A stretch of 9,933 nt of DNA from Deltaproteobacteria bacterium (GTDB taxonomy: Bacteria > Desulfobacterota > Desulfobacteria > C00003060 > C00003106): positions 3,296-13,228 of the forward strand of contig JAFDAE010000056.1 of the NCBI GenBank assembly GCA_019314005.1. Reading direction: 5' to 3'. Shown piece by piece: positions 3,009 through 3,117 of the stretch. The stretch's first letter is position 1; the number at the start of each line of letters is the position of its first letter. Both the position numbers and the translations under genes were made by a program. Under the pieces are notes generated by a model. It was not told where the DNA came from and made no database searches. It worked only from the letters and a program-made list of their open reading frames with translations.

Positions 3009-3043
3009 AAAAAAAACCTCTCTACCCTGAACAGGTAAAGAGG
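3009..3043 (-). terminator. Intrinsic terminator acting as attenuator just before pyrB
   Basis: Read leftward, the left arm CCTCTTTACC (3043-3034) pairs over 10 bp, with one G-U, with GGTAGAGAGG (3026-3017). The loop is 7 nt and eight T follow (3016-3009). The T-run ends 9 nt before the pyrB ATG, so termination here would abolish pyrB and pyrC expression. It could end lepB transcripts too, but its position inside the pyrB ribosome-binding region argues for regulated read-through. Confidence 0.85.
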
Positions 3044-3081
3044 CCTCGTAAATGAGCCATTAAAGGCAATTTGTTGGACAT
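3022..3081 (-). CDS. Putative pyrB attenuation leader peptide (19 codons)
   Basis: An ATG at 3081 opens a 19-codon frame, MSNKLPLMAHLRGLFTCSG, whose TAG (3024-3022) lies inside the right arm of the terminator. The frame reads through the whole left arm, so a ribosome following the polymerase closely would stop the hairpin from forming. A GAGGAG (3100-3095) lies 13 nt before the ATG, which is long, and 4 nt before an in-frame TTG at 3090, which would give 22 codons. This resembles the pyrL leader of E. coli pyrBI, where low UTP slows the polymerase and lets the ribosome catch up. The peptide sequence matches no family I know. An ORF this short can arise by chance, so the case rests on its position. 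Confidence 0.5.
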   Translation of the reverse strand: MSNKLPLMAHLRGLFTCSG

Positions 3082-3117
3082 ACTAATCAAAGTGCTCCTC
3101 TGGAATCAATCTCAGTG

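Follow-up and report, generated by a model that had tools for sequence, protein, structure and literature searches.

Attenuation of pyrBI in enteric bacteria is a textbook example. Amino-acid leader attenuators of the trpL and hisL kind also place a short translated leader ahead of a terminator, and for the pyr leaders of Thermus a scheme has been proposed in which PyrR binds over the Shine-Dalgarno (SD) sequence. In the E. coli pyrBI region compared here, a promoter is followed by a leader ORF (pyrL) with its own SD and by an intrinsic terminator just before pyrB; there are 30 codons to the stem, the ORF runs through the terminator, the longest U run between start and stem is 5, and pyrI is present. 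Passages of two papers (PMC10135430, PMC5021804) state that a ribosome on the E. coli leader prevents the hairpin from forming.

The window, by which is meant the whole stretch of 9,933 nucleotides analysed, from a Deltaproteobacteria bacterium, presents the same arrangement: a promoter-like site, a leader ORF with an SD, and an intrinsic terminator just before pyrB. The U content from start to stem is also similar, 31% compared to 33% in E. coli pyrL and 15-33% in 14 leaders of this type, all by the same count. In contrast to E. coli, the stem is reached after 13 codons, the stop codon of the ORF lies in the terminator's right arm, the upstream gene is lepB, and pyrI is absent. The longest U run between start and stem is 3 (1-4 in the 14 leaders), in agreement with the preliminary description, which had seen no long U-tract here. 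Because the ORF does not read through the terminator and pyrI is missing, the leader is best called a variant of the pyrBI kind. It differs from the trpL and hisL kind in that leaders like that of the window have no conserved codon run, no conserved peptide and no shared antiterminator.

It is reasonably likely that transcription of pyrB in the window is attenuated by way of a short leader whose translation acts as the gate, as with E. coli pyrL. Ribosomes on the tiny ORF would then probably decide whether pyrB is transcribed, much as in E. coli, but with a shorter leader. A literature search that took in a minority of subscription journals found no publication describing a pyrB leader of this sort for the phylum. 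If the reading is correct, control of pyrB through ribosomes occurs more widely, also in bacteria related to the sulfate reducers, where the device is shorter, keeps its stop codon within the loop or arm of the terminator and has no long U run.

Organization of the lepB-pyrB region

All features of the locus lie on the minus strand. The gene for signal peptidase I, lepB (3206..3850; TIGR02227, 177 bits, cut-off 47), ends 206 nt upstream of pyrB, which encodes the catalytic subunit of aspartate carbamoyltransferase (2061..2999; NF002032, 408.5 bits, cut-off 263). The next gene, overlapping the end of pyrB, is pyrC for dihydroorotase (737..2077; TIGR00857, 423.5 bits, cut-off 279). An apparent in-frame, low-complexity tandem-repeat insertion is seen near the N terminus of pyrC (about 1878-1980, region NRGQRAEGRGQKSKIQNPKSKI). 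Elsewhere in the window, the minus strand encodes at 4690-5862 a protein whose likeness to the methanogenesis marker 16 protein stays below threshold (121 bits, cut-off 364), adjoined by a larE gene (267 bits, cut-off 150).

Five elements follow one another in the gap between lepB and pyrB: a promoter-like site, a 37-nt hairpin, the hexamer GAGGAG, an ORF of 19 codons beginning with ATG, and the terminator. The promoter-like site (3162..3191) consists of TTGACT at 3191-3186, an 18-nt spacer, and an extended -10 element, TGT-TATTTT, at 3170-3162. Such sites number 22 in the window, compared to a mean of 16.4 in shuffles, so that this one is weak evidence when taken alone. The hairpin (3119..3155), in the presumed 5' untranslated region, belongs to a MITE-like element with inverted repeats (GAGAYCTTTGMAAA ends) inserted between promoter and leader; it is present in the relative L119 and absent from L120, and a longer related inverted-repeat element is found inside the terminator loop of L089. 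The 3119-3155 hairpin probably lies outside the mechanism.

The presumed leader SD, GAGGAG (3095..3100), lies 13 nt upstream of the ATG (3081-3079) of the leader ORF MSNKLPLMAHLRGLFTCSG (3022..3081), which has 19 sense codons, or 22 if counted from an alternative TTG start at 3090-3088. Its stop codon, TAG at 3024-3022, sits in the right arm of the terminator (3009..3043). In that hairpin the 5' arm CCTCTTTACC at 3043-3034 pairs across a loop with the 3' arm GGTAGAGAGG at 3026-3017 to give 10 bp with one G-U, and a run of eight T (T8) occupies 3016-3009. The ATG of pyrB, at 2999, comes 9 nt past the end of T8. These elements, as first described, from the SD and the 19- or 22-codon ORF to the stem with its included stop, the T-run and the 9-nt gap, proved exact base for base.

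A terminator scan recovers this hairpin, counting 15 pairs with G-T allowed. The same scan finds 6 terminator-like sites in the whole window, compared to a mean of 10.6 in shuffles, and therefore proves nothing by itself. The 216-nt lepB-pyrB RNA folds better than its shuffles (z -3.76, with 1 of 200 as good), partly because of the second, unrelated hairpin at 3155-3119.

Conservation of the leader among relatives

Fifteen leaders were compared: that of the window, those of two close relatives, and those of 12 genomes of a sister family. L114, the same locus as L005, is included in the 15 and dropped from the set of 14. Outside both counts are L013, with a terminator before pyrB and no convincing SD-led ORF, L103, with a weak hairpin and a short ORF lacking an SD, and L089, where the leader is broken.

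An ATG or GTG stands 13 codons ahead of the sequence CTC-TT(T/A)-AC(C/G) in all 15 leaders (12 codons in L099 and L114). The leader frame is free of stops from the start to this sequence in every one of them, though the sequence in between has diverged, while the two other frames contain stops in 15 and 7 of the 15. Such a start followed by an open frame occurs in 0.7-3.7% of the shuffles of single leaders. An ATG-initiated ORF with an SD that enters the stem is found in 11 of the 14 leaders, the window included, whereas 300 dinucleotide shuffles gave 0.5 on average and never more than 3; the ones that fail are L092 and L102, which begin with GTG, and L094, where the test detects no SD. Since the leaders share kinship, these counts of 14 and 15 do not represent independent cases. 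By a crude motif match the spacer between SD and start is 11-16 nt across the 15 leaders. In 13 of the 15 leaders (12 of the 14 other than the window) the stop falls within the loop or the right arm, most relatives having it in the loop; in L094 and L102 the ORF reads through the terminator. Relatives with the terminator keep the ORF, as the preliminary description required.

Upstream, TTGAC and TGnTA with the same 18-nt spacing occur in 14 of the 15 leaders (not L092), compared to 0.16% of mononucleotide shuffles. The distance from TTGAC to the leader start is 61-69 nt, and 110 nt in the window and L119, both of which carry the inserted hairpin. The preliminary description, which did not mention this predicted promoter, needed a start of transcription between lepB and pyrB; the promoter's conservation is consistent with one.

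Other expectations fared differently. The changes in the ORF had been expected to be biased toward synonymous ones; the differences are instead spread across all three codon positions, so the peptide bears no sign of selection, and neither conserved codons nor a conserved leader peptide were found among the 15 leaders. The alternative TTG start also loses ground, the position common to all 15 being that of the ATG or GTG alone. The central description, a leader ORF overlapping a terminator directly before pyrB in an operon without pyrI, is supported by the conservation of start and frame, by the shuffles, and by the finding of PyrI in 0 of the 17 relatives searched, whose genomes may be incomplete. 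Judged from the sequence comparisons, the feature is genuine and goes beyond what chance would produce, and the conservation makes the leader ORF look translated.

The terminator stem itself is well kept. In eight sister-family leaders its cells in the alignment are 100% paired, and of 11 pairs 7 are invariant, 3 vary on one side and 1 on both. Over ten stem positions in the 14 leaders, the 5' arm takes three forms (12 leaders are identical) and the 3' arm seven, in part because changes from U-A to U-G fall on the 3' side. The eight sister-family leaders also have a hairpin inside the ORF (97.5% of cells paired) that could be a pause signal for the polymerase; folds of the window's own clade show no ORF hairpin in common.

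The leader is unevenly distributed. By PyrB identity the closest genomes are G151 and G152 (95%), G130 (89%) and G089 (84%). The leader is complete in G151 and G152. In G130 an inverted-repeat element sits in the terminator loop and the ATG is out of frame with the stem, and G089 has no such leader at pyrB. In the G002 family, the sister group, pyrB is matched in 17 of 22 genomes and 12 have the leader; no intact leader is found in the five others (L093, L098, L134, L135 and L137), of which L134 has a T-run. Among 121 pyrB upstream regions, where at least two genomes are represented twice, a hairpin under -6 kcal/mol with a T-run occurs in 22, and 17 are of this leader type, L005 and L114 being counted separately and the broken L089 included. 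The end of lepB closely precedes pyrB in many of the other pyrB upstream regions inspected.

In MAFFT alignments the ORF bodies found in the window's clade fail to line up with those of the sister family, so homology of the two clades' leaders rests on the fixed distance, the stem and the promoter. On a PyrB tree the leader label, which also took in L089, L103, L003 and L013, needs 9 changes, 5 of them forced by well-supported branches, so that gains of the leader are indistinguishable from losses. A covariance model of the 14 leaders, used on 291 genomes of the class with Infernal's stricter filters in force, gave 10 strong matches (73.8-98.3 bits), all of them pyrB leaders from which the model had been built. 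No new member appeared in those genomes; the next match scored 41.4 bits, and pyrB was present at 0 of the 20 weaker loci fetched.

Other pyrB leaders of the phylum

A wider survey covered 130 pyrB upstream regions, fetched from part of the genomes with a match (172 of the 218 sampled and 43 of 59 relatives of G001). A terminator is present within 120 nt in 38 of the regions; 34, with a T-run within 60 nt and an energy under -12 kcal/mol, were kept, and L323 (60 bases) was dropped. An ORF with ATG and SD enters the hairpin in 11 of the 34, compared to a mean of 1.5 and a maximum of 6 in shuffles, and by the same test 23 have no such ORF. Seven of these 11 ORFs, out of the 34 terminators, end exactly on the start of pyrB, which shuffles reproduce 0.16 times on average and at most twice; one related group supplies five of the seven. 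The clearest set is L245-L249, all five of which encode MxW[VF] with a TGA overlapping the pyrB ATG. MKIPP is encoded by L275 and L277, whose stop lies in the loop as in the layout of the window; by eye L250 and L251 do likewise, though they lack a clear SD.

In L262, L316, L342, L347 and L352 the right arm of the terminator upstream of pyrB contains AAGGAGG, followed by a T-run and then by ATG or GTG. Such hairpins may both end transcription and hide the ribosome site. Since AAGGAGG lies in the right arm near pyrB in several leaders that have no ORF, not all such leaders need act alike. CCTCCTT, which resembles the tail of 16S rRNA, is found in the 5' half of 19 of the 34 pyrB terminators, compared to 5 of 34 other terminators in 51 of the loci (Fisher p 0.0008, relatedness ignored).

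Proposed ribosome-gated attenuation and its alternatives

In the proposed mechanism, RNA polymerase would initiate at the promoter in the lepB-pyrB gap and transcribe first the SD, then the ORF, whose first 13 codons precede the stem, and finally the terminator. A ribosome that had been loaded and was at the stem in time would cover the 5' arm and, on pausing at the stop codon, which lies in the right arm here and in the loop in most relatives, the 3' arm too. With the arms covered, no hairpin could form and pyrB and pyrC would be transcribed. If no ribosome arrived in time, transcription would end at T8. UTP would set the pace of the polymerase relative to that of the ribosome and, by analogy with E. 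coli, pyrimidine supply in this form is the likeliest signal.

It is from conservation that we infer the promoter, translation of the leader, and the overlap of the ribosome's path with the stem; that the ribosome would block the terminator hairpin is argued from the E. coli case. No antiterminator common to the 14 leaders was found in single-sequence folds, and this candidate was set aside because the RNA cut after the 5' arm folds differently among them. In the truncated RNA of L120, L102, L106, L099 and L095 the 5' arm pairs mostly with the SD region, which may serve as a part-time antiterminator in some leaders. Since no antiterminator is shared, direct block by the ribosome is the simplest switch, and a block of the pyrL type is likely at these leaders. 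A passage of PMC4824070 reports that at the phage terminator tR2 in E. coli termination fell from about 90% to under 10% when the stop codon was moved to 5 bp before the stem.

Several points count against the pyrL-like reading. The U runs are short, a long spacer separates the leader SD from its ATG, the leader is missing or broken in some relatives, and the ORF bodies cannot be aligned between clades. A passage of PMC10135430 gives 49% of its pyrL sequence as U-requiring, and one of PMC4824070 holds that, unless there are special pauses, ribosomes are unlikely to catch the polymerase within the first 100 bp. With the natural variants of the leader it would be possible to examine how far coupling of this kind depends on pausing of the polymerase.

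A tentative and rather doubtful reading would place these leaders in a PyrR-independent class of pyrB attenuators without a U tract. The fixed 13-codon spacer would be a timer, the signal would be read at initiation on the leader, and a nearly invariant 5' arm resembling an anti-SD (CCUCUUU in the window, CCUCCUU in the 19 pyrB terminators of the phylum survey) would have two alternative pairing partners, the leader SD and the 3' arm of the terminator.

Control by PyrR is unlikely. Together with UMP, it would bind the leader RNA over the SD and block leader translation, so that the terminator forms. PyrR genes score above cut-off in 26 of the 30 genomes searched, including the close relatives G152 and G130 (none was found in G151, G002, G011 or G021), and a weak hairpin around the SD is present in the eight sister-family leaders (82.5% of cells paired). 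Like the PyrR attenuators described by RF00515, these leaders have a terminator ahead of a pyr operon, and seven give sub-threshold matches to that model: 18.4-24.8 bits at the pyrB leaders of G027, G007, G015, G009, G002 and G026, and 28.1 bits, the best, at L119. None of these comes near the cut-off of 54 bits, however, and the window has no match at E<=1. In the sole alignment inspected, that of L119, the inserted hairpin is taken as the binding loop and the match lies mainly at the terminator. A shared antiterminator, moreover, is lacking here. As a positive control, G006, where pyrR is beside pyrB, has a canonical element before pyrR-pyrB at 54.8 bits, the only one of 26 genomes to exceed the cut-off, and PyrR is also encoded in genomes that have no pyrB leader (G005, G008, G017, G023 and G089). 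The preliminary description had named a PyrR gene with its binding loop as an alternative; the gene is indeed widespread among relatives, and the loop is not supported for the leaders.

Quite unlikely, too, is a signal other than pyrimidines, with the leader reporting translation initiation or ribosome supply and pyrB following growth. The absence of a long U tract and of conserved codons or peptide would suit such a signal, as would the long SD spacing, which suggests slow initiation. The covariance model, however, found the element at pyrB alone, which indicates a pathway-specific signal, though the model was itself built from pyrB leaders. An ordinary terminator, ending the transcript of lepB or of a small RNA and overlapped by an ORF by chance, would account for a hairpin downstream of lepB, intergenic intrinsic terminators being common, but it is highly improbable given the conserved promoter between lepB and the hairpin and an ORF start and frame kept in all 15 leaders against a low rate in shuffles.
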